A DNA stretch of 47,396 nucleotides from Chloroflexota bacterium (GTDB lineage Bacteria; Chloroflexota; Dehalococcoidia; CAUJGQ01): positions 1 through 47,396 of the forward strand of contig CAUJGQ010000161.1 of NCBI GenBank assembly GCA_963170165.1, given 5' to 3'. The stretch's first letter is position 1. Each line of letters starts with the position of its first letter. Made by a program: the position numbers and the translations under genes. The notes under the pieces were generated by a model. That model saw only the letters and a program-made list of their open reading frames with translations. It ran no database searches and had not been told where the DNA came from. Shown here piece by piece: positions 391 to 34,138 of this stretch.

Positions 391-2136
391 TTAGTTGCCC
401 TTGTCGATCCACACCTTGAGGTAGGTTTCACCGCCGGGACCGAAGCCGTTGGTGCGCTGGTAGTTCTTCAGCCACTCCTGCACGCCGGTGTAGGCGGCGC
501 CGACGACAGTGTGGGCGTAGTACATCTTGTCGCCGTTGTACACCTGCAACTCGCGAATCAGCTTGCGCCGCTCGTCGTCGTTGGAGGTGGCCTCTTCCTT
601 CTGAATGAGGGCGTCGAACTGCGGGTCATTGACGCCGGAGGTGTTGCGGGTGCCCTTGGAGAAGTACTGGGTCAGGAAGTACTGGTGCGAGTCCGAGTAC
701 TGCGCGCCGTTACCAAACACCACGCCCTCATAGTTGCCGAACAGTGTGCCGGTGACGGGCACGATGTACTGGCGCAGATAGTCCTGCGGGTCCAGCGTCA
801 CCTGGAAGCCGCCGTCCTTGAACATGGTGGCAACCGCCTCGGCGGTGCGGTTGAAGGTCTCGCCGTAGATGTTGTTGGAGTAGTTGAATTTGAGCGGGTA
901 GCCCTGCGGGTAGCCGGCGGCGGCGACCAGCTTCTTGGCCTCGGCCGGGTTGTACTTGTAGTACTGCTGGCCGGCGCCCATATCGGCGCTCTTGGGGTCC
1001 ACCCGCCAGGCGCCGAAGTTGGCCGGGATGGCGCTGGACCACGCCCCCTTGCCCTTCCAGTTGAGCGACAGCAGCGCGTCGCGGTCGATGGACATCGACA
1101 ACGCCCGACGCAACCGTTCGTCGCGCAGGGGGCTGCCCTCCCGCTGCTGGATGGCGATGTAGTAGTGGGTCTGGGGAATGTACTCGAGATACTCAGCCTT
1201 GGGGTTGCTGCGCTTGATCTCGTCCAGCCGCTCGGTGGGGATGCCGTTCACCTCCAGCTTGCCCGCCTGGAACTGAGCGATGGCCTGCACCTCCTCCAGG
1301 ATGATGGGGAAATTGACGGCATCGAGGTACGGCTGGCCCTGGAGGAAGTAGTTCGGGTTCTTCTTCACCCGGTAGGCGATATCCGGCTGGGTGGACTCCA
1401 GCATGAACGGGCCGGTGCCGATCGCCGACTTGAGCGGGTCCCAGCCGCCGGCCGCCAGCTCCTTGGGCATGATCCACAGGTAGTTGGCGTCGGCGATCAG
1501 GCGGGTGAAGGGCCCGTACGGCCGCGCCAGTTTGAAGACAGCGGTGCGCGCATCCGGCGTCTCCACCGTGTCCACCAGCGGGTTATCGGCAGCGCCAAAG
1601 GCGGCACGGTTGTTGTTCTTGGGCTCGTTGCGAAACCGCTCCAAGGAGAACTTGACATCCTCGCTGGTGACGGTGCGGCCGCTCACCGGGGCGATGTCAT
1701 GGAACTTGGCGTTGGCCCGCAGCTTGAAGGTGACGGTGCGACCATCGCCGGAGGTCTCGTAGCTCTCCGCCAGGTCGGGGTCGAGTTCGAAGTTATTGGC
1801 AAAGGCCGGGTCCGGTCCGGTCTTGATCTTGAGCAGCCGCGAAAACAGATAGCTCGCCAGCACCTGGGTGGTATAGGTGGCGTTGGTGTACGGGTCCAGC
1901 GGCGCGTTGGCCGCCTGTTGCAGATTGATCGCTCCGCCCGGCTTGGGCTGCTTGGCCTCGGCCGCCCGCGTCGAGGTGGCGACGACAATGTTGCCGGGGG
2001 TGGCGGCGCTTTGCTGCGCTCCTCCGGACGAGTCCTTGTCATCGGAGCCGCCGCAGGCCGCGACGAAGGCGGCTGCTCCCGCTGCCATGCCGGCGCCCAG
2101 CAGCCGCCGCCGGCTGATGTTGTTCATCCGCGCCAT
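391..2136 (-). CDS. ABC transporter substrate-binding lipoprotein, family 5 (peptide/nickel type)
   Basis: This extracytoplasmic binding protein of 581 aa captures a solute (oligopeptides, nickel or other small molecules in this family) for an ABC importer. The N-terminus has a twin-arginine motif (SRRRLLGAG), a hydrophobic stretch and a lipobox ending in AAC followed by GGS, so it is probably Tat-exported and lipid-anchored. The SBP_bac_5 fold is recognisable from the FKLRANAKFHDIAPVSGRTV region and the late RRALSMSIDRDALL motif. The frame is open to 2193, but the ATG at 2136 follows AGGAGG closely and puts the Tat motif near the N-terminus. No permease or ATPase gene is adjacent. It follows the CitE gene on the same strand after 168 nt, so it may import the substrate of that locus, but this is inferred from position only. 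Confidence 0.9.
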   Translation of the reverse strand: MARMNNISRRRLLGAGMAAGAAAFVAACGGSDDKDSSGGAQQSAATPGNIVVATSTRAAEAKQPKPGGAINLQQAANAPLDPYTNATYTTQVLASYLFSRLLKIKTGPDPAFANNFELDPDLAESYETSGDGRTVTFKLRANAKFHDIAPVSGRTVTSEDVKFSLERFRNEPKNNNRAAFGAADNPLVDTVETPDARTAVFKLARPYGPFTRLIADANYLWIMPKELAAGGWDPLKSAIGTGPFMLESTQPDIAYRVKKNPNYFLQGQPYLDAVNFPIILEEVQAIAQFQAGKLEVNGIPTERLDEIKRSNPKAEYLEYIPQTHYYIAIQQREGSPLRDERLRRALSMSIDRDALLSLNWKGKGAWSSAIPANFGAWRVDPKSADMGAGQQYYKYNPAEAKKLVAAAGYPQGYPLKFNYSNNIYGETFNRTAEAVATMFKDGGFQVTLDPQDYLRQYIVPVTGTLFGNYEGVVFGNGAQYSDSHQYFLTQYFSKGTRNTSGVNDPQFDALIQKEEATSNDDERRKLIRELQVYNGDKMYYAHTVVGAAYTGVQEWLKNYQRTNGFGPGGETYLKVWIDKGN

Positions 2137-2304
2137 GGTCCTCCTGCCCTCCTCGTGCACTACGCGCGCCATCCGACGTCCGGTGTCCGGCATGCTGGGG
2201 CGGAGAGATCTCCCTCACTGCCTCCCCGCGAGGCGGGCACGTGGGCCACGAGATGAGGGGCCGTCCCCCATTCCCTCGTCTGCCTATCTGCCCAGTTCCC
2301 CGGC

Positions 2305-7827: not shown

Positions 7828-9249
7828 ATGGATATCACGCGACGGCTGGCACAATTCGTGGTGGAGACGTCGTACGACGACCTGCCCGCAGAAGCCGTGA
7901 CGCAGGCCAAGCGCGCCATCCTCGATACGTTGGGGGTGGCGCTGGCCGGGGTGAGCGAACCGTGCGCACGTATCGCCGCGGAGCTGGCGCGGGAGGAGGG
8001 TGGCCGGCCGGCCGCCACCGTTATTGGCTTCGGCTTTGCTGCTCCGGCGCGGGCCGCCGCGCTGGTCAACGGTACCAGTACCCACGCGCTGGACTACGAC
8101 GATGTCAACGCCTCGATGCGCGGCCACCCCAGCCCACCGCTGCTGCCCGCCGTGCTGGCCGCCGGTGAGGAGATGAACGCCTCCGGCCGGGCGCTAATCG
8201 AAGCGTTCGTGCTCGGCTTTGAGGTCGAATGCAAGGTAGGGCGCGGGCTCGGCGCCAGCCACTACCCCCACGGCTGGCACGCAACATCAACGTTGGGCAC
8301 GCTGGGCGCGGCGGCGGCAGCAGGCAAGCTTTATGGACTGAGTGTGGAGCAGATGGTGATGGCGCTGGGCATCGCTGCCTCGCTCGCCTCCGGCTCCCGC
8401 CAGAACTTCGGCACGATGACCAAGCCGCTGCACCCCGGCCACGCCGCCGCCTCGGGGCTGCTGGCCGCCCAGCTTGCCCGCCGCGGCTTCACCGCCGACG
8501 AGACGATCCTTGAGGCGCCGCTCGGCTTCATCCAGCTGTTCTCCCCGGCCAAAGACGCCACGCCCGAACGGGTACTGGAAGCACTGGGCGCCCCGTGGGA
8601 TATCGTTTCGCCCGGTATCAGCGTCAAGAAATACCCTTGCTGCTTCGTCACCCACACGGCGCTCGATGCGCTGCTAGCGCTGCGCGAGCAGCACGGCTTC
8701 GCCGCAGATGACATCGCGCGGGTGACGGTGACGATGCCGGGCGGAGGTGTGGTGCCGGCCAGCGTCAGCACCGCTACCGCCGAAGGGGAGGAAGCGCCGC
8801 CTGCCACCTACGGTCCGCTGATTCACGCCCGCCCCACCACCGGGCTGGAGGGAAAGTTCTCTATGCAATACTGCCTGGCGGCGGCAGCGCTGGAGGGCAG
8901 CCCGCGGCTGGACACCTTCGAGGACGCCGCCGTTCAGCGGCGGGAGGCGCAGTCGCTGCTGCGGCGAGTCGCGTTCGACCCCCAACCGGGTGTGGCCGGC
9001 ACACGGGTGACGGTGACGCTCGCCGGTGGCGCCACGCTCGAGGGCTCCTGCCGCGAGCCGCGCGGCGGCCCGGAGTCGCCGTTGAGTTGGGATGAGCTGG
9101 TGGCCAAGTACCGCGACTGTGCCGGCCGGGCGCTGCCCCCCGCGGCCGTGGAAGCCTCGCTGGCGCTGATTACCGGCCTGGAGCAGATGGCCGCCACCAG
9201 CGACCTCATGCGGCAGGTCGCCGGCCAGCCCGCCGCTGCCGCCGTCTGA
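7828..9249 (+). CDS. MmgE/PrpD family protein (2-methylcitrate dehydratase / cis-aconitate decarboxylase superfamily)
   Basis: A full-length 473-aa MmgE/PrpD protein. The N-terminal LAQFVVETSYDDLPAEAV and AILDTLGVALAG, the HALDYDDVNASMRGHPS block, the GWHATSTLGTLGAAAAAGKL block and KPLHPGHAAASGLLAAQLA are the conserved active-site regions. The family includes 2-methylcitrate dehydratase, cis-aconitate decarboxylase (which makes itaconate) and uncharacterised members in itaconate-degradation loci. It is cotranscribed with the IclR gene in all likelihood (50 nt apart, same strand). No prpB or prpC is nearby, which argues against a plain methylcitrate cycle. Confidence 0.88.
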   Translation: MDITRRLAQFVVETSYDDLPAEAVTQAKRAILDTLGVALAGVSEPCARIAAELAREEGGRPAATVIGFGFAAPARAAALVNGTSTHALDYDDVNASMRGHPSPPLLPAVLAAGEEMNASGRALIEAFVLGFEVECKVGRGLGASHYPHGWHATSTLGTLGAAAAAGKLYGLSVEQMVMALGIAASLASGSRQNFGTMTKPLHPGHAAASGLLAAQLARRGFTADETILEAPLGFIQLFSPAKDATPERVLEALGAPWDIVSPGISVKKYPCCFVTHTALDALLALREQHGFAADDIARVTVTMPGGGVVPASVSTATAEGEEAPPATYGPLIHARPTTGLEGKFSMQYCLAAAALEGSPRLDTFEDAAVQRREAQSLLRRVAFDPQPGVAGTRVTVTLAGGATLEGSCREPRGGPESPLSWDELVAKYRDCAGRALPPAAVEASLALITGLEQMAATSDLMRQVAGQPAAAAV

Positions 9250-9630: not shown

Positions 9631-9781
9631 GCAGATGGAGCGTGGCCGGTCACTGTTTGACCTGGTAGAGCTGTGCGACGCGCTTGAAGAGACGCTGGGG
9701 CGGGCGGTCGATGTCCTTACGGACGAAGGAATCAGCCCCTATCTGCGCGATGTGATCACCGCCGAGGCGCGGCCGTTGTGA
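9476..9781 (+). CDS. MNT-domain nucleotidyltransferase antitoxin, module 1 (MntA-like)
   Basis: A 101-aa minimal nucleotidyltransferase. The catalytic signature is GSMARGDARPDSDVDLLV, with Gly35-Ser36, ten residues, then Asp47-x-Asp49. In MntA/HepT systems such a protein modifies and neutralises the HEPN toxin by transferring AMP to a Tyr near its active site. ATG at 9476 follows GAGGAGGT; the longer frame upstream is not coding. The stop overlaps the GTG start of the HEPN gene (GTGA), as usual for these pairs. The 5' half is nearly identical to the second module but the C-terminal half differs. Confidence 0.88.
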   Translation: MDGMPPGLPPLLREKREEILRIAAAHGARDVRVFGSMARGDARPDSDVDLLVQMERGRSLFDLVELCDALEETLGRAVDVLTDEGISPYLRDVITAEARPL

Positions 9782-10119
9782 GCGGCGACCGTTTGTACCT
9801 CTGGCATATCGTCGAAGCCGGCCGCCGCATCGCCGAAGATGTTGCGGACGGCTATGACAGCTATTGCCGGGACCGCCGGCGCCAAGATGCCGTGATCCGC
9901 AACCTGGAGGTGATCGGCGAGGCAGCCAAACGCGTTTCCCCTGCACTGCGCGAGGCGCATCCCGCGATTCCGTGGCGGGCAATGACCGGCATGCGGGACC
10001 GGTTGATTCACCAGTACTTCGGCGTGAATCTGGACCTGGTGTGGGAAGCAGCGGCAGTGCGTCTGCCGGAGATCCTCCTGCACCTGGGGCCCCTGGTGGA
10101 GCAGGATCCTCCGCCGTAG
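9778..10119 (+). CDS. HEPN-domain toxin, module 1 (HepT-like)
   Basis: A 113-aa HEPN protein starting with GTG inside the MNT stop (GTGA overlap). The catalytic RNase motif R-x4-H-x-Y is intact: Arg73, His78, Tyr80 in MRDRLIHQYFGVN. The IRNLEVIGEAAKRV helix is typical of the DUF86/HepT group. In characterised homologues the HEPN protein cleaves RNA and the Tyr of this motif is AMPylated by the partner. The module is probably an active toxin-antitoxin pair. Identity with the second HEPN is only around 40% by eye, far below that of the adjoining MNT 5' halves. Confidence 0.88.
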   Translation: MSGDRLYLWHIVEAGRRIAEDVADGYDSYCRDRRRQDAVIRNLEVIGEAAKRVSPALREAHPAIPWRAMTGMRDRLIHQYFGVNLDLVWEAAAVRLPEILLHLGPLVEQDPPP

Positions 10120-10128
10120 ACGGAACTC

Positions 10129-10201
10129 TCAGCCCGCCCGCACGGGCTCAATCACCAGATCGCCCCAGCTGCTGATCGATGCCGTCAGTGGCGTAGACGA
10201 G
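10129..10201 (-). pseudogene. Remnant of the 3' end of dnaE
   Basis: On the minus strand this stretch reads into GDLVIEPVRAG and a stop, and further upstream ATDGIDQQLG. The genuine dnaE ends with ATDGIDQRLGP and GELVIEPVRAG. About 35 nt are almost identical to 10924-10960, followed by a deletion of about 20 nt and a second aligned block. It sits between the two MNT/HEPN modules in the same relation to the first HEPN stop as dnaE has to the second. Confidence 0.8.
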
Positions 10202-10232
10202 ACCGCCGTCCACCGAGCGGCGCCGCCGCACC

Positions 10233-10425
10233 GTACAATGCGGGCAGTGCGCCGGTGCGAGGAGGTCAGGATGGACGGCATGCCGCCCGGGCTCCCGCCC
10301 TTGCTGCGCGAAAAGCGCGAAGAGATCCTGCGCATCGCGGCGGCGCACGGGGCGCGGGACGTGCGCGTCTTCGGCTCGATGGCCCGCGGCGACGCCCGCC
10401 CCGATAGCGATGTGGACCTGCTGGT
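10233..10425 (+). repeat. Direct repeat copy 2: promoter, RBS and 5' half of the second MNT gene
   Basis: Second copy of the 193-bp unit at 9438-9630, about 97% identical by eye, with the TACAAT element at 10234-10239. Confidence 0.9.
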
Positions 10426-10576
10426 CGGCGTAGAACCGGTCCACTCGGCATGGTTCCCTGCCGGGTTGGTGCTGGAGCTAGAAGATCTCTTGGGGCGCAG
10501 CGTAGACGTGGTTACTGATGGGTCGCTGCACCACGCCGTGCGCGAGCAGATATTAGCTGAGGCGCGGCTACTGTGA
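10271..10576 (+). CDS. MNT-domain nucleotidyltransferase antitoxin, module 2 (MntA-like)
   Basis: A 101-aa paralogue of the module 1 protein with the same start context (GAGGAGGT, then ATG) and the same GS-x10-D-x-D site (Gly35-Ser36, Asp47, Asp49). Residues 1-51 are identical between the two proteins as far as I can see. From residue 52 on they diverge (GVEPVHSAWFPAG against QMERGRSLFDLV) and share only scattered positions such as LGR-VDV-TD. The C-terminal half probably contacts the cognate HEPN partner. The stop overlaps the following GTG start. Confidence 0.88.
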   Translation: MDGMPPGLPPLLREKREEILRIAAAHGARDVRVFGSMARGDARPDSDVDLLVGVEPVHSAWFPAGLVLELEDLLGRSVDVVTDGSLHHAVREQILAEARLL

Positions 10577-10911
10577 CGGGCGACCGCCTGTATCTCCTCC
10601 ACATCAGCGAGTGCATCAGGCGAGTTACACGCCATGCCGCCTCCGGGCGAGATGCCTTCCTCGCGGAGGAGGTCAGGCAGGATGCCGTTCTGCGCAATCT
10701 CCAGGTAATGTCAGAATCCACCCAGCGGCTCTCCACCGCGCTCAAGGCAGCACACCCGGCAATTGACTGGCGGCGCATCGCCGCTTTCCGCAACCTACTG
10801 GCGCATGACTACCTCGGTGTGGATATGCGCCTGATATGGGATGTGATGGAGCAGGATATCCCGCCACTCGCCGAGACCATCGCTGCCATGTTGGAGGCGA
10901 CAGACCGCTAA
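10573..10911 (+). CDS. HEPN-domain toxin, module 2 (HepT-like)
   Basis: A 112-aa HEPN protein with GTG start and GTGA overlap with its MNT gene. Arg73, His78 and Tyr80 form R-x4-H-x-Y in FRNLLAHDYLGVD, so the RNase site and the Tyr target are intact. It keeps the frame of module 1 (GDRLYLLH start, VRQDAVLRNLQVM) but has diverged strongly. It converges on dnaE, whose stop lies only about 10 nt beyond its own. Confidence 0.88.
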   Translation: MTGDRLYLLHISECIRRVTRHAASGRDAFLAEEVRQDAVLRNLQVMSESTQRLSTALKAAHPAIDWRRIAAFRNLLAHDYLGVDMRLIWDVMEQDIPPLAETIAAMLEATDR

Positions 10912-10920
10912 CCCAGGCGC

Positions 10921-13900
10921 CTATCCCGCCCGCACGGGCTCAATCACCAGCTCGCCCCAGCCCTCCAGGATCGGCCCAAGCCGCTGGTCGATACCGTCGG
11001 TGGCGAGCGTGGTACCCATGCTCACGTGATGCACGTTGTACGGTGTCTGCACCACCAACCGCACCTCATCCGGACCGGGGAGCGAACGCAATACCTGCAC
11101 CAGCTCATTCAGGCGGCGGCGGTCGGCAGGCTCGTCGTCGGTCTCACGCAGGGTGATGCGCAGCCGCCGCCGCTCCCGATCCTCGGTGGTGATGGGCTTC
11201 GGCTCCGGCCGGGCATGGGGATGCCTCTTGCCGTTGCTGATCGGCGCGCGCGGCGCCGGGACGGCCACATGGACATCGCCGGAGTGCCGGCGCTCCGGCG
11301 CGGTCACCGGCGCCGTGGTGCCGGCGCCCTGCTCGTTCACGCCCGGGGCGGAGCGGCCGCCGCGTTGCGCCTCATCGGGTTCCCAGCCACTGTCCTCGTC
11401 GGTGAGATAGCCGTCATCGCCCGGCGGCGCGCCCCGATCACCGCTCCGGACGAGCGGGGCGACGGCGGCCAGCAGGGTGCTGCCCCGCACTGAGCCGGTG
11501 GCCTCATCCCACTCGCCGGCGTCGTCCACGGTGACATCTAGCCGGTCGTTGCGCATCCGCACCTTTGCCGACAGCAGCAGGATCTTGCCCTCCTGCCACA
11601 GGTCGCGGGACTTCTCGTAGGTATCCGGCCAGACCACCACCTCGACCTTGCCGGATAGGTCCTCGATCTGTGCAATGACGAAGCTCTTGCCTGCCTTGGT
11701 CAGCAATGTGCGCGTGCCTGCCACCATTCCGGCAATCATCAGGTCGCGCCCCGCCATCTCTTCGTTGATCTCGGCAGCCACGGCAGTGATCTTCGCCGCC
11801 AGCGACGTATGCGCCCGTTTGAAGGGGTGGTCAGAGACGTAGACACCGAGCAGATCCTTTTCCCAGGCCAGGACCTCTCCCGGGTGCTCCTGGACAGGGT
11901 CCAGCTCCAGCGCCGGCAGCGGCGTCTGCACCTGGTCACCGAACAGGTCGAACATCGTTGTTTGCCCGCTGTCGCGCAGCTTCTGCTCCCGCGCGATCAG
12001 GGAGGCGATCCGGTCAACATTCGTCGCCAGCGTGGTGCGGTTTGGGCCGAAACCGTCCAGCGCGCCTGCCTTGATCAGGCTTTCCAGGGCCCGCTTGTTG
12101 AAACCTTTGACCTGAATCCGGCGGCAGAAGTCCTCGAGTGAAGCGAACGGTCCCTTCTCCTCCCGCTCAGCAACGATACCGGCAATCGCTCCCTCACCGA
12201 CGTTTTTGATGCACGAGAGGCCAAAGCGGATGGATTCGGATGGGGCATCCGAGGAGAGCGGAATAGCGGCCGGTGTCTCAGTGGTGGCGCCTTCGGGTAC
12301 CACCGCAGCAGTGGCCGTGCTTGCGCCGGTCTGCCGCTCGATGGTGAAGTTGACCGCGCTGGCGTTGACGTGAGGAGGGAGAACGGGGATACCGAGCTTG
12401 ATACATTCGGCCACGGCCGCGCCCACTCGACCGCCGAAGCCGGCGGGATGCGTGTTTGCCAGCATCATGACGGCCGTCAGATACTCGGCCGGATAGTTGG
12501 CCACGAGATAGGCGGTCTGATAGGAGAGGGTGGCGTAGCAGACCGAGTGCGCCTTGTTGAAGGCGTAGCCGGCAAACGGCTCGATCAGGTCAAAGACGGC
12601 GCTGGCATCCTCGGCGGTGTAGCCCTGGCCCTTGGCGCCCTTGACGAACTTCTCGCGCTGCTCCGCCATCATCGAGGCGATCTTCTTACCCATCGCCTTA
12701 CGCACCTTGTCCGCCTCACCCATGGTGTAGCCGGCGAACTGGCGCAAGATGAACAACACCTGATCCTGGTAGACGATCACGCCGTAAGTCTCGTCCAGGA
12801 TGTTGGCCAGGGCGGGATGGGGATACTCAATCGGCGCCTTGCCGTGCTTGGCGGCGCAGAAGCGGGGGATGTGCTGCATCGGCCCGGGGCGGTACAGCGC
12901 CACCATCGCGGACAGGTCGGCGATGCTGCTCGGCTTCAGCTCCTGGATGTAGCGGCGCATCCCCGCCGACTCAAGCTGAAAGACGCCGAAGGTCTCGCCG
13001 CGGCCCAGCATCTCGTACGTCTTGGCGTCGCCGTCCGCCAGCGTGCGCAGGTCCAGGTCGATGCCGCGTTGCTGCTTGATCAGCTCGACCGCCCGGGCCA
13101 GGATGGTGAGGTTGCCCAGGCCGAGGAAGTCCATCTTCAGCAGGCCGGCCTCGGCGACGGTGTTCATCTCCCATTGTGTGAGCGGCAATGCCTGTTCACC
13201 GCCGCGCACCGGCCGCTGCAGCGGCACCACATCGATCAGCGGATCGCGCGAGATCAACACTCCGGCGGCGTGGGTGCTGACATGGCGCGCCACCCCCTCC
13301 AACGGCCGGGCGGCGTCCACCAGCCGCTTGACCTGCGGGTCGGCCTCGTACACCTGCCGCAGCTCCGCGTTCTCAGCGAAGGCCCGTTCCATGGTCATGT
13401 TGGGCGCGTCAGGCACCATCCGCGCCACCCGGTCCGTCTCGGCCACGGTGTAACCCAGTGCCCGCCCGACATCTTTGATCGCGGCCTTCGGCTTGAGCGT
13501 GCCGAAGCTGCAAATCTGTGCCACGCGGTCGTGGCCGTACCGCTCCGCCGCCCAGCGGATCATCTCCTCACGCCGGTCGTCTGCGAAGTCCATGTCAACA
13601 TCCGGCATCTCGCGCCGCTCGACGTTGAGGAAGCGCTCGAAGACGAGGCGGGTACGGATCGGGCAGATATCGGTGACATCGAGCGTATACAGGATGATGC
13701 TGGCCGCCGCCGAGCCGCGCACGCCCATGGCGATGCCGCGCTGCGCCGCCGCCCGCGCGATCTCGGCCACAATCAGCATGTAGGCCGCGAAACCGGTCAC
13801 CTCCACAACGTGCAGCTCGTACTCCAGCCGGCGACGCACCTCATCGGCCGCGCCGGGGACAGGCGGCTCCGGGTTGGGGTGCAGTGGCCACGGCCCGGCA

Positions 13901-14859
13901 GCGGCGTCGCCATAGCGGCGCTTGAGCCCCTCATGACACACCTGGGTCAGGTATTGCTGTGGGGTCATGCCCGCTGGCAGCTCTGGGTCGGGCAGCATCA
14001 CCCGGCCGAACTCCAGCGTCAGGTCACACATCTCGGCGACGCGCTGCGTGTTGTCGATGGCGTCCGGCCGCTCGCGGAACAGGGGAATGCGCCGGATCTC
14101 CTCTTCGCCGATCAGGTAATAGCTGTCGCCTTCCAGCCGGAAGCGCTTCGGGTCATCGACAGTGGAGTTGCTGCCGATGCACAGCAACAGCTCGTGCGAG
14201 CGGGCATCCTCCGGCGCGGTGTAATGCGAGTCGTTGGTGCCGGCCAATGGCATCCCGGTCGCATCGGCGAAGGCCAGCAGCCGCGGATTCACCCGGTCGA
14301 GCATTCCACGCAGCTCGCCGGCGGCATCCGGATGGTCCTGGATCTCGACGAACACCGCGTCGAACACATCCTTGTAGAACCCGGTGGCAGCGCGGGCGTC
14401 TTCATCACGCCCGTCCTGTAGCGCCTTGAATAGCTCCGCGGAGGGACAGCCGGTGAGGGCGATGATGCCCTTGCCGTACTTGGCCAGCAGCTCGCGATCC
14501 ATACGCGGCTTGTAGTAAAAGCCTTCGAGGTTGGCCAGGGTAGTAAGCGCCATCAGGTTCTTGTAGCCCTGCGCGTCACGGGCCAGCAACGTCAGGTGAT
14601 GGTAGCCACTCTTGTCGCGGCTCTCGCGGTTGAAGCGGGAGCCGGGGGCGACATACGCCTCCACACCGATGATCGGCTTGATGTCCCGCGCCCGCGCTTC
14701 CCGGTAAAACTCGATCACGCCATGCATGGCGCCGTGGTCGGTGATGGCCAGCGCCTCCTGCCCCAGCGCCTTAGCGCGGTCCAGCAGCGCCGGAATGCGG
14801 GCAAGTCCATCGAGCAAGGAGTACTCGGTGTGGGTGTGCAAATTCGTGAACATCGGCAT
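10921..14859 (-). CDS. dnaE: DNA polymerase III subunit alpha
   Basis: The replicative polymerase catalytic subunit, about 1,312 aa. An N-terminal PHP domain starts with FTNLHTHTEYSLLDGLARIP and ITDHGAMHGVIEFY. The palm carries PDVDMDFADD near residue 418 with two catalytic aspartates. HhH repeats follow (the KGFNKRALESLIKAGALDGF segment), then an OB domain (GRDLMIAGMVAGTRTLL to DRLDVTVDDA). An unusual low-complexity, charged stretch of about 120 residues separates the OB domain from the C-terminal part. ATG at 14859 or 14853 fits best; the frame upstream to 14970 lacks similarity. Fragments of this gene recur at 10129-10201 and 21155-21391, so the locus has been duplicated in pieces on both sides. 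Confidence 0.96.
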   Translation of the reverse strand: MPMFTNLHTHTEYSLLDGLARIPALLDRAKALGQEALAITDHGAMHGVIEFYREARARDIKPIIGVEAYVAPGSRFNRESRDKSGYHHLTLLARDAQGYKNLMALTTLANLEGFYYKPRMDRELLAKYGKGIIALTGCPSAELFKALQDGRDEDARAATGFYKDVFDAVFVEIQDHPDAAGELRGMLDRVNPRLLAFADATGMPLAGTNDSHYTAPEDARSHELLLCIGSNSTVDDPKRFRLEGDSYYLIGEEEIRRIPLFRERPDAIDNTQRVAEMCDLTLEFGRVMLPDPELPAGMTPQQYLTQVCHEGLKRRYGDAAAGPWPLHPNPEPPVPGAADEVRRRLEYELHVVEVTGFAAYMLIVAEIARAAAQRGIAMGVRGSAAASIILYTLDVTDICPIRTRLVFERFLNVERREMPDVDMDFADDRREEMIRWAAERYGHDRVAQICSFGTLKPKAAIKDVGRALGYTVAETDRVARMVPDAPNMTMERAFAENAELRQVYEADPQVKRLVDAARPLEGVARHVSTHAAGVLISRDPLIDVVPLQRPVRGGEQALPLTQWEMNTVAEAGLLKMDFLGLGNLTILARAVELIKQQRGIDLDLRTLADGDAKTYEMLGRGETFGVFQLESAGMRRYIQELKPSSIADLSAMVALYRPGPMQHIPRFCAAKHGKAPIEYPHPALANILDETYGVIVYQDQVLFILRQFAGYTMGEADKVRKAMGKKIASMMAEQREKFVKGAKGQGYTAEDASAVFDLIEPFAGYAFNKAHSVCYATLSYQTAYLVANYPAEYLTAVMMLANTHPAGFGGRVGAAVAECIKLGIPVLPPHVNASAVNFTIERQTGASTATAAVVPEGATTETPAAIPLSSDAPSESIRFGLSCIKNVGEGAIAGIVAEREEKGPFASLEDFCRRIQVKGFNKRALESLIKAGALDGFGPNRTTLATNVDRIASLIAREQKLRDSGQTTMFDLFGDQVQTPLPALELDPVQEHPGEVLAWEKDLLGVYVSDHPFKRAHTSLAAKITAVAAEINEEMAGRDLMIAGMVAGTRTLLTKAGKSFVIAQIEDLSGKVEVVVWPDTYEKSRDLWQEGKILLLSAKVRMRNDRLDVTVDDAGEWDEATGSVRGSTLLAAVAPLVRSGDRGAPPGDDGYLTDEDSGWEPDEAQRGGRSAPGVNEQGAGTTAPVTAPERRHSGDVHVAVPAPRAPISNGKRHPHARPEPKPITTEDRERRRLRITLRETDDEPADRRRLNELVQVLRSLPGPDEVRLVVQTPYNVHHVSMGTTLATDGIDQRLGPILEGWGELVIEPVRAG
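14567..14803 (-). repeat. dnaE 5' segment duplicated at 21155-21391
   Basis: 237 bp inside the PHP-domain coding region, matched at a constant offset of 6,588 bp with about three mismatches by eye. The copies are in the same orientation and flank the helicase/endonuclease gene. Confidence 0.93.
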
Positions 14860-15007
14860 CCGGCATCCGCCGTTCGCCGTCCAGGGGCGATGGCCCCCGA
14901 TCCAGCGCGCGGCGAGAGATACCGCCAGCGTACGCCAGGGCGGGGGAGTCGAGCATCTGGCAGGCGGCATTTGGAAGCGAAAGATAGACTCGCTATGCGA
15001 AAGCGGA

Positions 15008-20773: not shown

Positions 20774-21154
20774 ATCTCTCCACACAGAGCGCGCTGGCAC
20801 CACTGTCATTGCGCGGTATGTACAGTGTGTCTCATGTTATGACAGATCGCTGCCGGATGCAGCCCCGATGTGACCACCCGTGCGGCCAGCCATGGGTCAT
20901 CCCATCGTGGGTACACGGTAGGGGAGCGAACGTCGCTTAGCCTACTGAAGGGGCCATTGTTCGACGGTCGTGCCGTCACTGTTTGGCAGAGTCAACCGGC
21001 CCAGACAGAAAGTACAAAGGCACCCGTGATCTGAGCGAGTGGCGGTCGGACCGGTGACGCTCAGTCGAGCGATCAACAGCCCATCTGATGCTTCGGACCC
21101 ACTTCTCGCGGTCCTTGCTAAGGGGTCTCTCTCACCTAGCAGTGTCATGTACAA
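20774..21154. other. Intergenic stretch, no supported gene
   Basis: About 380 nt upstream of the helicase gene. A 70-codon minus-strand frame (20942-21154) has a CLCTFC segment but no ribosome binding site or recognisable domain. The promoter of the helicase gene should lie near 20775-20850, where the sequence is relatively A/T-rich, but no clear -35/-10 pair was found. Confidence 0.4.
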
Positions 21155-21391
21155 CCCTGCGCATCACGGGCCAGCAACGTCAGGTGATGGTAGCCACTCT
21201 TGTCGCGGCTCTCGCGGTTGAAGCGGGAGCCGGGGGCGACATACGCCTCCACACCGATGATCGGCTTGATGTCCCGCGCCCGCGCTTCCCGGTAGAACTC
21301 GATCACGCCATGCATGGCGCCGTGGTCGGTGATGGCCAGCGCCTCCTGCCCCAGCGCCTTAGCGCGGTCCAGCAGCGCCGGAATGTGGGCA
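21155..21391 (-). pseudogene. Copy of the dnaE 5' region (PHP domain fragment)
   Basis: Near-exact duplicate of 14567-14803 in the same orientation. It would encode IPALLDRAKALGQEAL through LTLLARDAQG. It lacks the true N-terminus with the first metal-binding histidines (HTHTEYSLLDG) and everything after the first 110 codons, so it cannot make a polymerase. The high identity shows the duplication is recent or kept by recombination. Confidence 0.92.
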
Positions 21392-21526
21392 GAAGGATCA
21401 GCCTCGTGCCGGTCAGCGTGCCATCCGCTTCGGTGCCACAATTCCAGCAGGCGCCGTAGACATCATCCACCTGCTCATGACCGTGCTGAAAGCCACATTA
21501 CCGTGGCTCCAATCACAGTGACATCG

Positions 21527-28838: not shown

Positions 28839-29285
28839 ATGGGTATCGCGCTGGTCCTGCCCCTGCGCACCCTCCCAGCCCGCACGCTGTACGAGGGCAC
28901 GCTATTGGCGCTCGCCCTGGCGGTGCTCCTGACGGCGTGCTTTGGCCGCGCCGGCGTGCAGCAAGTCGATGGGGCCACTGTCGCCCGGCTGGCGCTGCTC
29001 CACCTGCACGGCGTCCCCGGCGAAGCCGCCTACGTGCATGAGCACCGCGCCCCAGCTCCCTTCGTGCAGGACCACTGCCACGCTCCGGCGCAGGAACCCG
29101 TGCCCCAACCCGGGCCGTATGACACGCTCGCCGCTGCATCGCTGGCAGGCGCGGTGCTGTGTACGGCCCCAGGTGCGCTGCCCGTGGCGCCCGCCACGCT
29201 GTCCGCTACCGCGCTCGCTCAGCCGCTGCCGCCGGCCGGCGCGCTCGCCCTTCCTGCCACACCTCCTCCCCGCGCCGGCGCCTAA
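28839..29285 (+). CDS. Hypothetical protein with hydrophobic segment
   Basis: A 148-aa frame with strong G/C preference in third codon positions (nearly every codon between 28860 and 28960 ends in G or C), which supports coding on this strand. Near residue 25 it has a hydrophobic segment, LLALALAVLLTACFG, that could be a signal anchor or a lipobox-like site. The rest is Ala/Pro-rich with several His (HLHGVPG and YVHEHRAP). No family is recognised. The start is uncertain: ATG 28839 has only a weak AGGG, and the frame is open from a GTG at 28800. The next gene starts 152 nt on. Confidence 0.45.
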   Translation: MGIALVLPLRTLPARTLYEGTLLALALAVLLTACFGRAGVQQVDGATVARLALLHLHGVPGEAAYVHEHRAPAPFVQDHCHAPAQEPVPQPGPYDTLAAASLAGAVLCTAPGALPVAPATLSATALAQPLPPAGALALPATPPPRAGA

Positions 29286-29437: not shown

Positions 29438-30319
29438 ATGACTGCTCCAACCCTGCCCGCACTCACGTGCGCGATGTGCCATGACAACCTGAACGCCGTC
29501 CGCTTCGAGGCGCCAGATGGCCAGACCTACTGCTCCGAATGGTGTTACCGCACCCGCGACCCGGAAGACGCCGTCACCATGGCGCCGCGCGAGGTGATGC
29601 CGCTGTGGCGGGCGATGATGGCGCGCGGCTGCCCCAGTTGCCCGATCCCCCAGAAGCAGCGCTGCCTTGGCCGCGAACGGCACTTGCAGTACATCGGCAT
29701 CGAGCAGCTGCGTCCCTGGCAGACGATGGAGTGGGACATGAAGGCCGAGCACGTCTTCGGCGGCGGCCTGGGCGACGGCACCATCCCGGCGGCCGGTGCG
29801 CACGCCGTGGCCGCAACGGCGGAGAGACTGGCCCGCGGGGCCAATCACCCGCTGGTCACCACCCAGGATGTTGTCTCAGCGCTGGCACGGATGACGCCTT
29901 CCTACCGCTATCGCGAGCCGGTAGAGGCAGACTCGCAGTTCGCCGCCCTGCTTGACGCCGCGCCGCCCGCGCCAAAGGTGGTGGGCGCCGGCCGCAAAGC
30001 GGACAAGGAGCAGCAGGAACGCCAGCGCAGCGATCCGGCGAAGGCGATGCTACAAGTGCAGGGAATCCTCGACTCCATTCCCGGTCAGCATTGCGCTCAC
30101 CGGCTGCTAGCAGACCGGCCCGTGCACTGGTGCAGCCATGCCCCCTTCCTGCTCGCCCGCTTCTTCCAGGAGCCGGGCTTCGGCGACGCGGAGGCGCGGA
30201 CGCTGATCGAGGCGGCCGAGGCGACGGGCCAGGAGCACGGACACAGCTGGGTGCAGCCGCGCGACCTGGAGACGGCACTGTTCCGCGCCGCCACCGCTGG
30301 TTTCGCGGAGGAGGCGTAG
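29438..30319 (+). CDS. Cys-rich protein with N-terminal TRASH-like zinc ribbon
   Basis: A 293-aa protein, not recognised as a whole. Residues 11-36 hold C-x2-C-x17-C-x3-C with the end YCSEWCYR, like TRASH/MYM-type metal-binding modules. A second cluster, Cys65, Cys68 and Cys76, lies in CPSCPIPQKQRC. A helical part (AERLARGANHPLVTTQDVVSAL) resembles degenerate Clp-N-type repeats, and a similar helix pair appears near the C-terminus. HCAH and HWCSH add further possible ligands. It has no signal peptide or membrane segment. GAGGAGGGA precedes the ATG. The gene ends 2 nt before the solute-binding protein gene, so it belongs to the transporter operon. A metal sensor or chaperone role is an inference. 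Confidence 0.75.
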   Translation: MTAPTLPALTCAMCHDNLNAVRFEAPDGQTYCSEWCYRTRDPEDAVTMAPREVMPLWRAMMARGCPSCPIPQKQRCLGRERHLQYIGIEQLRPWQTMEWDMKAEHVFGGGLGDGTIPAAGAHAVAATAERLARGANHPLVTTQDVVSALARMTPSYRYREPVEADSQFAALLDAAPPAPKVVGAGRKADKEQQERQRSDPAKAMLQVQGILDSIPGQHCAHRLLADRPVHWCSHAPFLLARFFQEPGFGDAEARTLIEAAEATGQEHGHSWVQPRDLETALFRAATAGFAEEA

Positions 30320-30321
30320 CC

Positions 30322-31938
30322 ATGACAAGGCAGAGGTTAGGACGGCGTCGATTCCTGAGCGGCACGGCGGCGCTGGGCGCGGCGGCGCTGGCGGCCTCAT
30401 GCGGCGGCGGTGACAAGGAGACACCGGCGGCGGAGACGAGCAACTCCGCGCCGGCGGCCACCGGCGCAGCGACCGTCACGCCACGCAGGGGAGGCACGCT
30501 GCGCGCCGGGCAAACGAGCGATATCAGCCTGAACGCCGGCTATCCGGTGATCTCCGGCCCGCAAAACCGCCTGCTCGGCTTCGCCACCGCCGAAGGGTTG
30601 GTGCGCTACAGCACCAGCGTTGAGCCGGAACTGCTGCTGGCGGAGCGGTTTGAGTACAACGCCGAGCGCACGAGCCTGACGGTGACGCTCAAGCCAGGAC
30701 TCCAGTTCGGCAACGGCGCATCGGTCACCATCGATGACGTCTTCTTCGCGCTGGACCTGCTCAAGGAGCCGCGCCGCTTCGGGCTGGCGATCCCACCGCC
30801 CGGCGGCCCGGTTACCGGCATCACTGAGCGCCGCAAGATCGATGACCGCACGGCTACCTTCACCTTCGACCGGCCGCGCTACGACATGACCGGCCTGTTT
30901 ACCGACCTGATGCTCACCCATGCCCCCTCCTTCGAGAAGCTGAAGACGGGTGAGGTGGTGGCGACGACCGGCCCCTACCAGCTCACCAAGTGGACACCGG
31001 GACAACTCTACCGGCTGGAGCCTAACCGCTACTGGCACGGCGCCGCCAACGACGGCGGTCCGTATCTGGACGCCATCGAGGTGCGCATCTTCCGCGACGA
31101 GGAGGCGATGGCGCTTGCCTTCGAGGCAGGCGAGCTGGAGCTGGTGCTACGGGCGCTGGCTACCTCCGGCAGCCGGTTCAAAGCGGCGGGCAAAGTGAAG
31201 ACGGCCCCCGCCATCGGCCTGTACTACCTGGGCATGAACGTCACCAACCCGCTGCTGGTAGACCCGCGTGTGCGCCGAGCCCTGTTCCTGGGCATCGACC
31301 GTCAGCGCATCGCGGACGAGGTGGGAGAAGGCTTCCTCAAGCCCACCGTCCAGGCATGGCCCGCCTACTCCCCGGCATATGACAAGACGCTCGATGCGCC
31401 GTTCTACGACCCGGCGCAGTCCAAGGCATTGCTCAAAGAAGCGGGCTTCTCCCAGAGCCGCCCGCTGATCCTGGAGTACCCGCCGGCGAGCTTCAGCACG
31501 ACCGCACCGATCGTCAAAGAGAACTGGGAGGCGATTGGCGTCAAGCTGGATCTCGTCCCCACCGAGACCAACGTCATCGTCACCAAGTCGCGCAACCGTC
31601 AGTTCACCGATCTGTGGGCTGGGGGCACAAACCTGAGCGACCCGGTACCAGCCTCGGCGCTGGCCACCAACACGGCGTTTAGCATCCCCAATCCCAGTCA
31701 CAACGAGCATCCCATCCTGGCCGGCGTCATCCAGCAGCTGCAAACCCTGGACCCGCAGAGCGTGGAGGCCAAGGCCCAGTACGCCCGTTTCAACCGCCTG
31801 TATGTGGAGGAACCCTGGCACATCCCCCTGCAGCCCACCGGCGCCATCGACCTGGTGTCGCCCAAGCTCCAGGGCTTCGACAGCTACTTCATCCGTCCCG
31901 TCCAGTCGCCCAACTTCGGCCGGATGTGGCTGAAGTGA
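30322..31938 (+). CDS. ABC transporter substrate-binding lipoprotein, family 5
   Basis: A 538-aa SBP_bac_5 protein with Tat motif GRRRFLSG and lipobox AASC followed by GGG, so it is exported and lipid-anchored. Core signatures are VTLKPGLQFGNGASVTIDDV, TGPYQLTKWTPG and VRRALFLGIDRQRIADE. ATG at 30322 starts just before the Tat motif. It is the binding partner of the two permeases that follow. The ligand could be a peptide, nickel chelate or other small molecule. A 12-bp inverted repeat follows its stop, which would favour a higher level of this subunit than of the permeases. Confidence 0.93.
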   Translation: MTRQRLGRRRFLSGTAALGAAALAASCGGGDKETPAAETSNSAPAATGAATVTPRRGGTLRAGQTSDISLNAGYPVISGPQNRLLGFATAEGLVRYSTSVEPELLLAERFEYNAERTSLTVTLKPGLQFGNGASVTIDDVFFALDLLKEPRRFGLAIPPPGGPVTGITERRKIDDRTATFTFDRPRYDMTGLFTDLMLTHAPSFEKLKTGEVVATTGPYQLTKWTPGQLYRLEPNRYWHGAANDGGPYLDAIEVRIFRDEEAMALAFEAGELELVLRALATSGSRFKAAGKVKTAPAIGLYYLGMNVTNPLLVDPRVRRALFLGIDRQRIADEVGEGFLKPTVQAWPAYSPAYDKTLDAPFYDPAQSKALLKEAGFSQSRPLILEYPPASFSTTAPIVKENWEAIGVKLDLVPTETNVIVTKSRNRQFTDLWAGGTNLSDPVPASALATNTAFSIPNPSHNEHPILAGVIQQLQTLDPQSVEAKAQYARFNRLYVEEPWHIPLQPTGAIDLVSPKLQGFDSYFIRPVQSPNFGRMWLK

Positions 31939-31950
31939 GCCGTCAGCGAT

Positions 31951-31997
31951 CAGCGGTCAGCCTGCAGCAAGTGCGACCAAGCCCCGGCTGACCGCTG
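31951..31997 (+). other. Intercistronic stem-loop after the solute-binding protein gene
   Basis: Perfect 12-bp inverted repeat CAGCGGTCAGCC/GGCTGACCGCTG with a 23-nt loop, between the solute-binding protein and permease genes. Without a T-run it more likely stabilises the upstream mRNA or partly attenuates, as known between malE and malF in enterobacteria, than ends transcription. Confidence 0.6.
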
Positions 31998-32019
31998 GTT
32001 ACCTATCAAGGAGTCCATC

Positions 32020-32964
32020 ATGCTGGGCTTTGTCATCCGGCGGCTGACGCAGGCGGTACCGGTGCTGCTGCTGACCTCGACAGCGGTATTCCTGCTGCTG
32101 CGGCTGATTCCGGGGGATCCGGTGGCGGACCTAGCCGGGGAGAATGCCTCGCCCGAGCGGGTGGAGGAGATCCGCCGGCAACTGGGGATGGATGGCTCGA
32201 TCTTCGCGCAGTACGGGCGCTGGCTGAGCGACGTGCTGCATGGCGACCTGGGCCGGTCAGTGCAAAACGGGGTGAGCGTCGGGCGGCTGCTCCGGCTCGC
32301 CGGGCCGCCCACGGTCGAACTGGCGCTGGTGGCATATCCGCTGGCGCTGCTGCTCGGCATTCCGCTGGGAGTGCTGGCCGGGGCGCGGCCGCGCTCGCGC
32401 TGGGACTGGGCGTTGTCTGGCTATACCGCCTTCGCCGTGGCGCTGCCGAGCTTTGTGCTGGGCGTCGCGCTGCTGTGGTTGTTCTCCGTGCGCCTGGGCT
32501 GGCTGCCTGCCTCAGGCCACGTCTCGCTGTTTGACCATCCGGGTGAGGGCTTGCGGCGCATCATCCTGCCGGCGCTGTCGGTAGCGCTGGTGATGGCCTC
32601 GGCGCTGGCGCGCTACACGCGCACGGCGCTGGCGGAGGTGATGCGTCAGGACTACGTGCGTACTGCCTGGGCCAAGGGCGCCGGTGACCGCCGTGTCGTG
32701 CTGCGTCACGCCCTGCCTAACGCCCTGGTACCGGTGATCACCATCGCTGCGCTTCAGTTCGGCCACCTGCTCACCGGCGCGGTGGTGGCAGAACGCATCT
32801 TCACCCGGCCGGGGTTGGGTGACCTGGTGGTACGTAGCATCCAGACCCGCGATTACCCGGTGGTGCAGGGGGCGCTGCTGATGCTGGTGGCCGTGTTTGT
32901 CGCGGTCAACCTGCTGGCCGATCTCGCCTATGGTATCGCTGACCCGAGGATTCGACGATCATGA
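32020..32964 (+). CDS. ABC transporter permease (DppB/OppB/NikB type)
   Basis: A 314-aa inner-membrane permease. It starts LGFVIRRLTQAVPVLLL, has the family block LRLIPGDPVADL, about six membrane helices, and the cytoplasmic loop DYVRTAWAKGAGDRRVVLRHALPNAL that docks the ATPase. AAGGAG precedes the ATG. Its stop overlaps the next permease start by 4 nt (ATGA). Confidence 0.95.
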   Translation: MLGFVIRRLTQAVPVLLLTSTAVFLLLRLIPGDPVADLAGENASPERVEEIRRQLGMDGSIFAQYGRWLSDVLHGDLGRSVQNGVSVGRLLRLAGPPTVELALVAYPLALLLGIPLGVLAGARPRSRWDWALSGYTAFAVALPSFVLGVALLWLFSVRLGWLPASGHVSLFDHPGEGLRRIILPALSVALVMASALARYTRTALAEVMRQDYVRTAWAKGAGDRRVVLRHALPNALVPVITIAALQFGHLLTGAVVAERIFTRPGLGDLVVRSIQTRDYPVVQGALLMLVAVFVAVNLLADLAYGIADPRIRRS

Positions 32965-33860
32965 CACAGCTTTCACTCGGCTCCCGCCGCAGCCTGCGCA
33001 GCCCTGCCCCGCGGGCGAAGGGACCGCCTCGCTTCGCTACGCTGCGGCGCATACTGGCCAATCCCCAGGGGCTGATCGGCGCGGGCGGGCTGGCGCTGCT
33101 GGTGCTGCTGGCGCTCGGCGCCGAGCTTGTGGCGGCACACGATCCCGCCGCCCAGGACGCGGGCCGCCGTCTGCTCTCCCCATCGGTCGCGCACCCGTTC
33201 GGCGTGGACGAGCTGCGGCGTGACCTGCTGGCGCGGACGCTGTTCGGGCTGCGCATCTCGCTGCTGGCCAGCTTCCCGGCGGTGGCGGCAGGGGCGCTGG
33301 CCGGGACGGCACTCGGCTTTGTTGCCGGGTATGCCGGTGGCTGGGTGGAGGCGGTGGTGATGCGCTGCGTCGATGCCATGCTGGCGATGCCGGGGCTGCT
33401 CTCAGCGATTGCCGTGCTGACGGTACTGGGACCGGGCAGCATAAGCGTGGGCGTGGCGATCGCGCTCTTCAACGTGCCGCTGTTCACCCGGCTGGCGCGG
33501 GGGCAGATGCTGGCGGAGCGGGGCAAAGAGTACGTGCGCGCCGCGGAGGCGACCGGCGCGGGACCAGCGCGGATCATCTTTATCCACATCGCCCGCAACG
33601 CCGCGCCACCTCTGCTCACCCAGGTGGCGATGAGCGCGGTGGCCGCGGTGATGCTGGCGGCGGCGCTCAGCTTCCTCGGACTGGGTGAACGGCCGCCGGA
33701 GCCATCGCTAGGCGGGTTGATCAACGCCTCACGGCCCTACCTGCGTACCGCGTGGTGGTACCCGCTGTTCCCGGGGCTCACCCTGGCCGTACTGCTCGTC
33801 AGCCTCAACCTGCTGGCCGACGCCATTGCCGAGGCAACGGGGCCCTACCGGCGGCGCTAG
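32961..33860 (+). CDS. ABC transporter permease (DppC/OppC/NikC type)
   Basis: A 299-aa permease with the DppC features HPFGVDELRRDLLARTLFG, about six membrane helices and the ATPase-docking loop EYVRAAEATGAGPARIIFIHIARNAAPPL (the EAA motif region). It is translationally coupled to the preceding permease. It is the last gene of the operon here: neither DppD- nor DppF-type ATPases follow, and the next gene is on the opposite strand. Confidence 0.94.
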   Translation: MTQLSLGSRRSLRSPAPRAKGPPRFATLRRILANPQGLIGAGGLALLVLLALGAELVAAHDPAAQDAGRRLLSPSVAHPFGVDELRRDLLARTLFGLRISLLASFPAVAAGALAGTALGFVAGYAGGWVEAVVMRCVDAMLAMPGLLSAIAVLTVLGPGSISVGVAIALFNVPLFTRLARGQMLAERGKEYVRAAEATGAGPARIIFIHIARNAAPPLLTQVAMSAVAAVMLAAALSFLGLGERPPEPSLGGLINASRPYLRTAWWYPLFPGLTLAVLLVSLNLLADAIAEATGPYRRR

Positions 33861-33901: not shown

Positions 33902-34138
33902 TCACCCGCCACCCGCCAGCGCCGCCCGCGCCTGCGCCAGGGTAAACGGCCAGGCCAGCTCGTTCCCGGCGATCAGCACCACAGGAATGCGCTCACCGTA
34001 GCGGGCGCTCAGCTCTGGATCGCTGTCGATATTGATGGTCTCGATGTGCAGCGCCAACCGGCGGCCTGCCTGGTGCAGGAGGACGGCAGCTTCTTCACAC
34101 AGGTGACATCCGGGCCGGGAATACAGGATGACGGTCAT
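33902..34138 (-). CDS. Glutaredoxin-like thiol protein
   Basis: A 78-aa thioredoxin-fold protein with the redox pair Cys11-x2-Cys14 in YSRPGCHLCEEA and the cis-Pro region ERIPVVLIAG. Such short DUF836-type glutaredoxins reduce disulfides in the cytoplasm. It is divergent from glpX, with a perfect palindrome in the shared upstream region. Confidence 0.88.
   Translation of the reverse strand: MTVILYSRPGCHLCEEAAVLLHQAGRRLALHIETINIDSDPELSARYGERIPVVLIAGNELAWPFTLAQARAALAGGG

Follow-up and report, generated by a model that had tools for sequence, protein, structure and literature searches.

An orphan cysteine protein and a family 5 importer without linked ATPases form a conserved gene block in Dehalococcoidia, with a possible connection to copper

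The window analyzed here, a stretch of 47,396 nucleotides (nt) from a bacterium of the class Dehalococcoidia (Chloroflexota; contig CAUJGQ010000161.1), contains a block of co-directional genes for an orphan protein with conserved cysteines (hereafter, Cys protein), a family 5 solute-binding protein (SBP) and two permeases of an ATP-binding cassette (ABC) importer, with no gene for an ATPase. Here we show that this gene set is conserved in four genomes of two families, and that the importer, the Cys protein and a His/Cys-rich membrane protein behave as one block. Copper aside, the Cys protein is an orphan family tied to one importer type. We tentatively read the cassette as a metal-linked importer, most likely for a copper chelate, that would draw on shared ATPases.

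The Cys protein gene (29438-30319, plus strand; 293 amino acids) is followed, on the same strand, by the genes for the SBP (30322-31938; 538 amino acids), an OppB/DppB/NikB-type permease (32020-32964) and an OppC/DppC/NikC-type permease (32961-33860). The stop codon of the Cys gene is separated from the SBP start by 2 nt, and the two permease genes overlap by 4 nt. The SBP, a predicted lipoprotein with a lipobox-like start recognized by eye, matches SBP_bac_5 with 202.2 bits (Pfam cut-off 32.4). Both permeases exceed the Pfam cut-off of BPD_transp_1 (26.4), with 142.7 and 105 bits, respectively, and their N-terminal domains are above cut-off too (BPD_transp_1_N, 59.3 bits; OppC_N, 26.9 bits). 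No oligo_HPY ATPase was found on the window contig. A preliminary description of this region had reported the Cys gene 2 nt upstream of an SBP and two permeases, with the ATPases missing, and had raised the question of whether the linkage is conserved; the open reading frame (ORF) coordinates and Pfam matches bear out this arrangement, and the comparison across genomes described below confirms the linkage.

Full-length homologues of the Cys protein were detected in three further genomes (G151, G140 and G282; 34-36% identity, E values of 1e-45 to 1e-47) among 393 genomes of the class, the window's own included. These three genomes belong to one family, different from that of the window, and the cassette thus occurs in four genomes of two families. 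Each of the three relatives carries the SBP gene and then both permease genes after the Cys gene, so that the order is kept in every one of the four genomes that carry the Cys gene. Identity to the window proteins (tblastn) is 50-54% for the SBP, 49-57% for the first permease and 54-63% for the second. In two of the four cassettes, those of G140 and G151, a PNPOx-type gene separates the Cys gene from the SBP gene.

The Cys protein family is rare and patchy within the genomes searched. It is present in 3 of 38 genomes of the relatives' family and absent from the only additional genome of the window's order that was searched, and among 400 genomes of the phylum the window's own genome yielded the sole accepted match. 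One other match in the phylum, to an ORF that by eye resembles argininosuccinate lyase, was rejected as a homologue, and the short, scattered matches in 50 class genomes (E values of 3.8e-4 to 0.1) were set aside as chance. Two peptide-pattern scans of 84,980 species, which required near-exact words and would let distant kin escape, found nothing in the first case and just two loci, taken as G140 and G282, in the second.

The four cassette SBPs form one clade (support 100/100) in a tree of 12 SBPs, namely these four and eight from regions with related SBPs, the other SBPs of those regions having been missed by the filter. The SBP was rejected as a general marker of the cassette: 12 further genomes contain relatives with 39-49% identity (E <= 1e-70), without cassette partners in the regions taken. 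In 12 regions from nine of those genomes, with 878 ORFs of 70 or more amino acids, matches to the Cys protein or the His-rich protein did not go below E 0.058, and ATPase matches all fell short of 1e-20.

The presence and absence of the block can be compared directly among five genomes of genus g56. A block of 5.4 kb is present in G140 and G151, with a LigD-type primase gene on one side and a YCII gene on the other, and the same two genes are adjacent in G059, G183 and G128; G352 (also g56, 72% complete) had no flank match. The DNA match between G140 and G128 ends at position 8157 of locus L032 and restarts at 13586, with the corresponding ends in G128 1 bp apart. The ends are about 10 bp apart in the comparison of G140 with G183, and about 85 bp apart in that of G151 with G059. 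The breakpoints fall directly upstream of the His-rich gene (start 8243) and within the last 30 bp of the OppC-type permease gene (end 13614). A promoter-like site, TTGACA-17-CAGAAT, lies upstream of the His-rich gene in the two g56 cassettes and is the sole such site in each scanned region (shuffle means of 0.2 and 0.1), and a promoter scan at the window cassette found no promoter-like site. The GC content of the block is 1.0-1.5 points above that of its flanks in G140 and G151, and the window operon exceeds the remainder of the window by 2.9 points; neither value is read as a sign of origin.

The absence of ATPase genes is the rule in these genomes and no peculiarity of this operon. An ATPase gene is encoded within 10 kb of 1 of 37 SBP_bac_5 matches in G000, 0 of 14 in G151, 0 of 15 in G140 and 6 of 34 in G282, counts that include fragments and in which linkage can go unseen on short contigs; G151, a single contig, is free of this limit. 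Unlinked ATPase genes are found in all four genomes. The oligo_HPY ATPase gene nearest to the cassette is 44 kb away in G282, more than 190 kb away in G151 and on another contig in G140. Each of the four genomes encodes a D/F pair, in a region of 15-18 kb whose called genes include no permease, and a single solo D-type ATPase. The four solo ATPases form a clade (100/99) in a tree of 20 of the 26 ATPases, the other six having been missed by the gene caller or the filter. The solo ATPase was considered as a dedicated partner of the cassette and rejected as such: it is present in 41 of the 393 class genomes (E <= 1e-115), with or without the cassette, and is therefore a shared candidate, not a dedicated one. 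The genome of G151, with 14 SBP_bac_5 matches and three oligo_HPY ATPase genes (one D/F pair and one solo), suggests that Opp-type ATPases can be far fewer than the importers that they might serve. In a separate observation, the solo OppD-type ATPase gene adjoins lexA (assigned by Pfam in L064 and by eye in L067) and, in L064 and L066, a DNA polymerase III delta-like gene (by eye).

The cassette resembles family 5 importers of the Opp/Dpp/Nik kind in its binding protein and OppB/OppC-type permeases, all above Pfam cut-offs. Those systems usually, if not obligatorily, carry OppD/OppF in the operon, whereas no oligo_HPY ATPase gene is present inside the block in any of the four genomes, and no ATPase match was found in the 19-kb loci L031-L033; unlike them, the cassette also incorporates an orphan protein, the Cys protein, to which the relatives add a His-rich membrane protein. 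Several sugar importers are served by the multitask ATPases MsmX/MsmK, according to passages of PMC7658222. The likeness to these systems consists in several importers without ATPase genes of their own and few ATPase genes at distant loci; MsmX/MsmK, however, serve type I sugar importers, whereas the importers considered here are of the family 5 peptide/nickel type with OppD/OppF-like candidate ATPases.

No Pfam or NCBIfam family matched the Cys protein above cut-off. LIM was the only Pfam model at E <= 1 (E 0.007, 17 bits against a cut-off of 22.9), with no TRASH-type Pfam model listed. PCP_red reached 14.2 and 11.3 bits (cut-off 32.5) in two of the three homologues and was not listed for the window protein, MCM_lid matched the Cys proteins below cut-off, and a PDB sequence search gave no match at E <= 1, the best profile match having an E value of 0.058. 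Invariant in all four Cys proteins are C65, C68, C76, C232 and five histidines. Two motifs are present in the four homologues, CxxCPxxQxxxC (residues 65-76; 29630-29665), which offers candidate metal or Fe-S ligands and corresponds to the second Cys cluster noted in the preliminary description, and HWCSH (residues 230-234; 30125-30139), also a candidate ligand motif. TRASH domains have the spacing C-x(19-22)-C-x3-C. The TRASH-like C-x2-C-x17-C-x3-C that had been reported for the N-terminus is indeed present at residues 11-36 of the window protein (29468-29545), where the C-x20-C-x3-C from C11 fits this spacing, but it is confined to the window member, being absent from all three homologues, and no TRASH-type model was matched in Pfam. 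MerH and CopT are TRASH-domain metal proteins (PMC3600143).

Residues 83-156 (29684-29905) and 211-293 (30068-30316) of the Cys protein look like an internal duplication: the two segments align as profiles with an hhalign probability of 94.8 and an E value of 5e-8, in one comparison of two half profiles from the same four proteins, and both are helical in the structure model. The protein is predicted to be cytosolic, with no membrane helix hydrophobic enough in the four members (the largest 19-residue hydropathy mean is 1.2). The structure model built from the four sequences is mostly helical (mean pLDDT 72.7, pTM 0.74), with residues 1-32 unreliable; a single-sequence model (mean pLDDT 40.6) was set aside. 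Fold searches revealed a weak likeness to AAA-lid and histone folds, below the level of kinship (best Foldseek E value 0.11; Z <= 6.1 over 80 residues).

The cassettes of the three relatives open with a gene for a protein of 139-164 amino acids in which a His-rich stretch separates two hydrophobic segments and which also has an HCH motif and a second Cys. A profile of this family, built from the three cassette members and a window ORF, whose score there is therefore not independent, matches in 35 of 314 class genomes (E <= 0.01). The family signature consists of HCH, found in 22 of the 23 other members, and a C-terminal PPR/PPK tail, found in all 23. In the window, the position of this cassette-opening protein is occupied by an ORF of 148 amino acids (28839-29285, plus strand) that encodes a putative His-rich membrane protein with two transmembrane (TM) segments. 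It contains HCH and a C-terminal PPR, both of which occurred in 29 of 300,000 shuffles, and is the sole carrier of the two among 427 window ORFs of 40 or more amino acids (matches counted under 260 amino acids). Two hydrophobic segments flank the HCH in the arrangement of the family, for which TM segments were computed in this ORF and the three cassette members. Its branch in the family tree is very long, and this ORF is probably a strongly diverged member of the His-rich family.

The connection with copper comes from the paralogues of the His-rich protein outside the cassette. In 20 of the 41 non-cassette match rows of its profile, taken for context and all among the 25 strongest, SCO1 and PCuAC are each encoded in 15 loci, the same 15 for both, CopC/CopD in two, and any of these in 17, as detected with query proteins that came from the His-rich loci themselves. 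In contrast, 31 control regions, which total 506 kb around ATPase genes, SBP genes and empty sites, contain none of these genes. Among the proteins submitted to Pfam, SCO1-SenC was confirmed in three, PCuAC in three and CopC/CopD in one. Among the three loci without any of these genes, L216 has the His-rich copy as the first gene of an operon that includes a Peripla_BP_2 binding protein; L228 encodes a small helical lipoprotein that accompanies SCO1 elsewhere; and L230 is a short contig with the genes of L231 as far as it reaches. The small helical lipoprotein, which has no Pfam match, is found beside SCO1 and PCuAC in nine loci (L217-L223, L226 and L227), or 10 of the 20 loci if L228 is counted. 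The idea of a metal-linked operon put forward in the preliminary description remains viable, for another metal and through another supporting protein: the metal connection holds through gene context, and the metal to which that context points is copper, not nickel.

The cassette SBPs share 41 residues that are found in at most one of eight sister SBPs, and therefore probably bind a ligand of their own. None of the cassette-specific invariant residues is a His or Cys, and the only Met is M305, which makes a bare metal ion unlikely, so that the ligand would be either a metal chelate or an organic compound. In the model that we propose, the lipid-anchored family 5 SBP would capture the ligand outside the membrane and the two OppB/OppC-type permeases would carry it inward, with uptake powered by OppD/OppF-type ATPases that are encoded elsewhere and could be common to many such importers. 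The cargo would most likely be a metal complex, probably copper on a small peptide or chelator. The His/Cys-rich two-TM protein might offer further metal ligands, probably on the outer face, whereas the Cys protein would be a dedicated cytosolic partner, with one putative Cys/His site formed by CxxCPxxQxxxC and HWCSH in a duplicated helical scaffold, that accepts or senses the metal after entry. The most specific version of this model, a dedicated copper-chelate importer of a new type that combines a family 5 ABC system, shared Opp-type ATPases, a new outer-face His/Cys protein handing over copper and a new cytosolic Cys/His receptor in one exchangeable block, is in our judgment unlikely.

Several known systems are related to the proposed function. 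MbnE is a family 5 SBP; its structure (5icq) is not among the 16 solved sequences that match the cassette SBP at E <= 1e-20, which is compatible with kinship. As a periplasmic binding protein for a copper chelate (PMC7558416), MbnE resembles the proposed role of the cassette SBP, and the inner-membrane step of methanobactin uptake is described as unknown in that source. The copper importers YcnJ/CopCD and CcoA (PMC13344008, PMC7558416) share the proposed purpose, copper entry into the cytosol, but are different proteins, and no CopC/CopD homologue is encoded in the four cassette loci. Bacterial copper entry into the cell has been analyzed in few cases (PMC7558416, PMC13344008). A literature search on copper together with ABC importers, SBPs or chalkophores returned nothing beyond work on copper stress, from which no wider absence from print is claimed. 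The block may be an unrecognized means of uptake for copper or a copper complex; if the copper reading is true, it provides a candidate for a further copper entry route, along with two new protein families, one of membrane proteins and one of cytosolic proteins, for testing.

A number of observations weigh against copper-chelate import, which is the best single reading, closely followed by an ordinary organic importer. Copper enters the argument solely through the gene context of the paralogues and not through the cassette members, and homologues of SCO1, PCuAC, CopC and CopD were found in none of the four cassette loci. The control regions are not random genome samples. The window ORF scores only 0.9 bits against the 23-member His-rich profile, with 250 of 1,998 scored shuffles equal or better, and -3.2 bits against the profile of the three cassette members, with 1,928 of 1,989 scored shuffles equal or better. 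The modeled fold of the Cys protein has no significant structural match. In addition, as noted above, the SBPs have no cassette-specific His or Cys, and their sisters elsewhere are encoded near sulfatase, FGE and TauE genes or near CoA transferases (Pfam confirmed one protein of each kind, and the rest were named by eye), which suggests organic cargo. The last two points likewise favor an ordinary importer for peptides or some other organic nutrient, in which the Cys protein would be a regulator or enzyme of the pathway whose zinc or Fe-S site is structural, and the His-rich protein an envelope accessory unrelated to the cargo. This explanation, which we regard as almost as probable as copper-chelate import, also agrees with the PNPOx-type enzyme gene in half of the cassettes and with the closest solved relatives of the SBP, mostly named peptide-type (8upi, DppA, AppA) or plain ABC binding proteins, although a heme-binding protein is also among them and the nickel-binding 3t66 matches at E 6.9e-11. 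It leaves aside, however, that two non-transport proteins with conserved metal-ligand motifs move with the importer as a block, and that the His-rich family is tied to copper genes in most of its other loci examined.

The Cys protein could instead act chiefly as a sensor of redox state or metal stress, regulating the importer from inside the cell and taking no part in transport. Its predicted cytosolic location, its early place in the operon and its duplicated helical repeat, with a weak likeness to AAA-lid or PCP_red modules, are compatible with such a role, but no DNA-binding domain was found above cut-off in Pfam or NCBIfam, and we consider this improbable. Still less probable is import of nickel or cobalt by a system like NikABCDE/Opp1, in which the Cys protein would serve as metal chaperone. 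Nickel can be bound by His-rich segments, and the best NCBIfam models for the permeases are named nickel transporter permease (Opp2B, 294.8 bits; Opp2C, 211.1 bits), but every nickel model is below its cut-off: for the permeases, these two (cut-offs 350 and 300), nickel_nikB (232.9 against 447) and nickel_nikC (199.2 against 358.45), and for the SBP, TIGR02294 (nickel_nikA; 63.1 against 393) and NF045468 (Opp5A_nikA; 70.3 against 600). Together with the copper genes near the His-rich family, these scores speak against the nickel cargo to which the preliminary description had pointed. Copper-chelate import with shared ATPases remains our tentative preference over these alternatives.

Some sister family 5 importers (L166, L168, L169 and L171-L173), with no ATPase match in the region, are encoded beside a sulfatase gene, in some cases with FGE or TauE in addition, and might import sulfated compounds. 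Within the window, a perfect inverted repeat with 12-bp arms 23 nt apart (31951-31997), a possible hairpin, lies between the SBP gene and the first permease gene and could set the ratio of SBP to permease. Directly past the operon, a glutaredoxin-like (DUF836) gene is located on the opposite strand (33905-34138, minus). A second family 5 binding protein is encoded at 391-2193 (minus), with neighbors identified by eye as CitE, a CaiB-type CoA transferase, MaoC and an acyl-CoA dehydrogenase. Two adjacent copies of nucleotidyltransferase/HEPN-type gene pairs (by eye) occupy positions 9778-10911. They are followed by a DNA polymerase III alpha-like gene (10921-14970), the N-terminal part of which is repeated, by eye, in a short ORF 6 kb away (21145-21441, minus).

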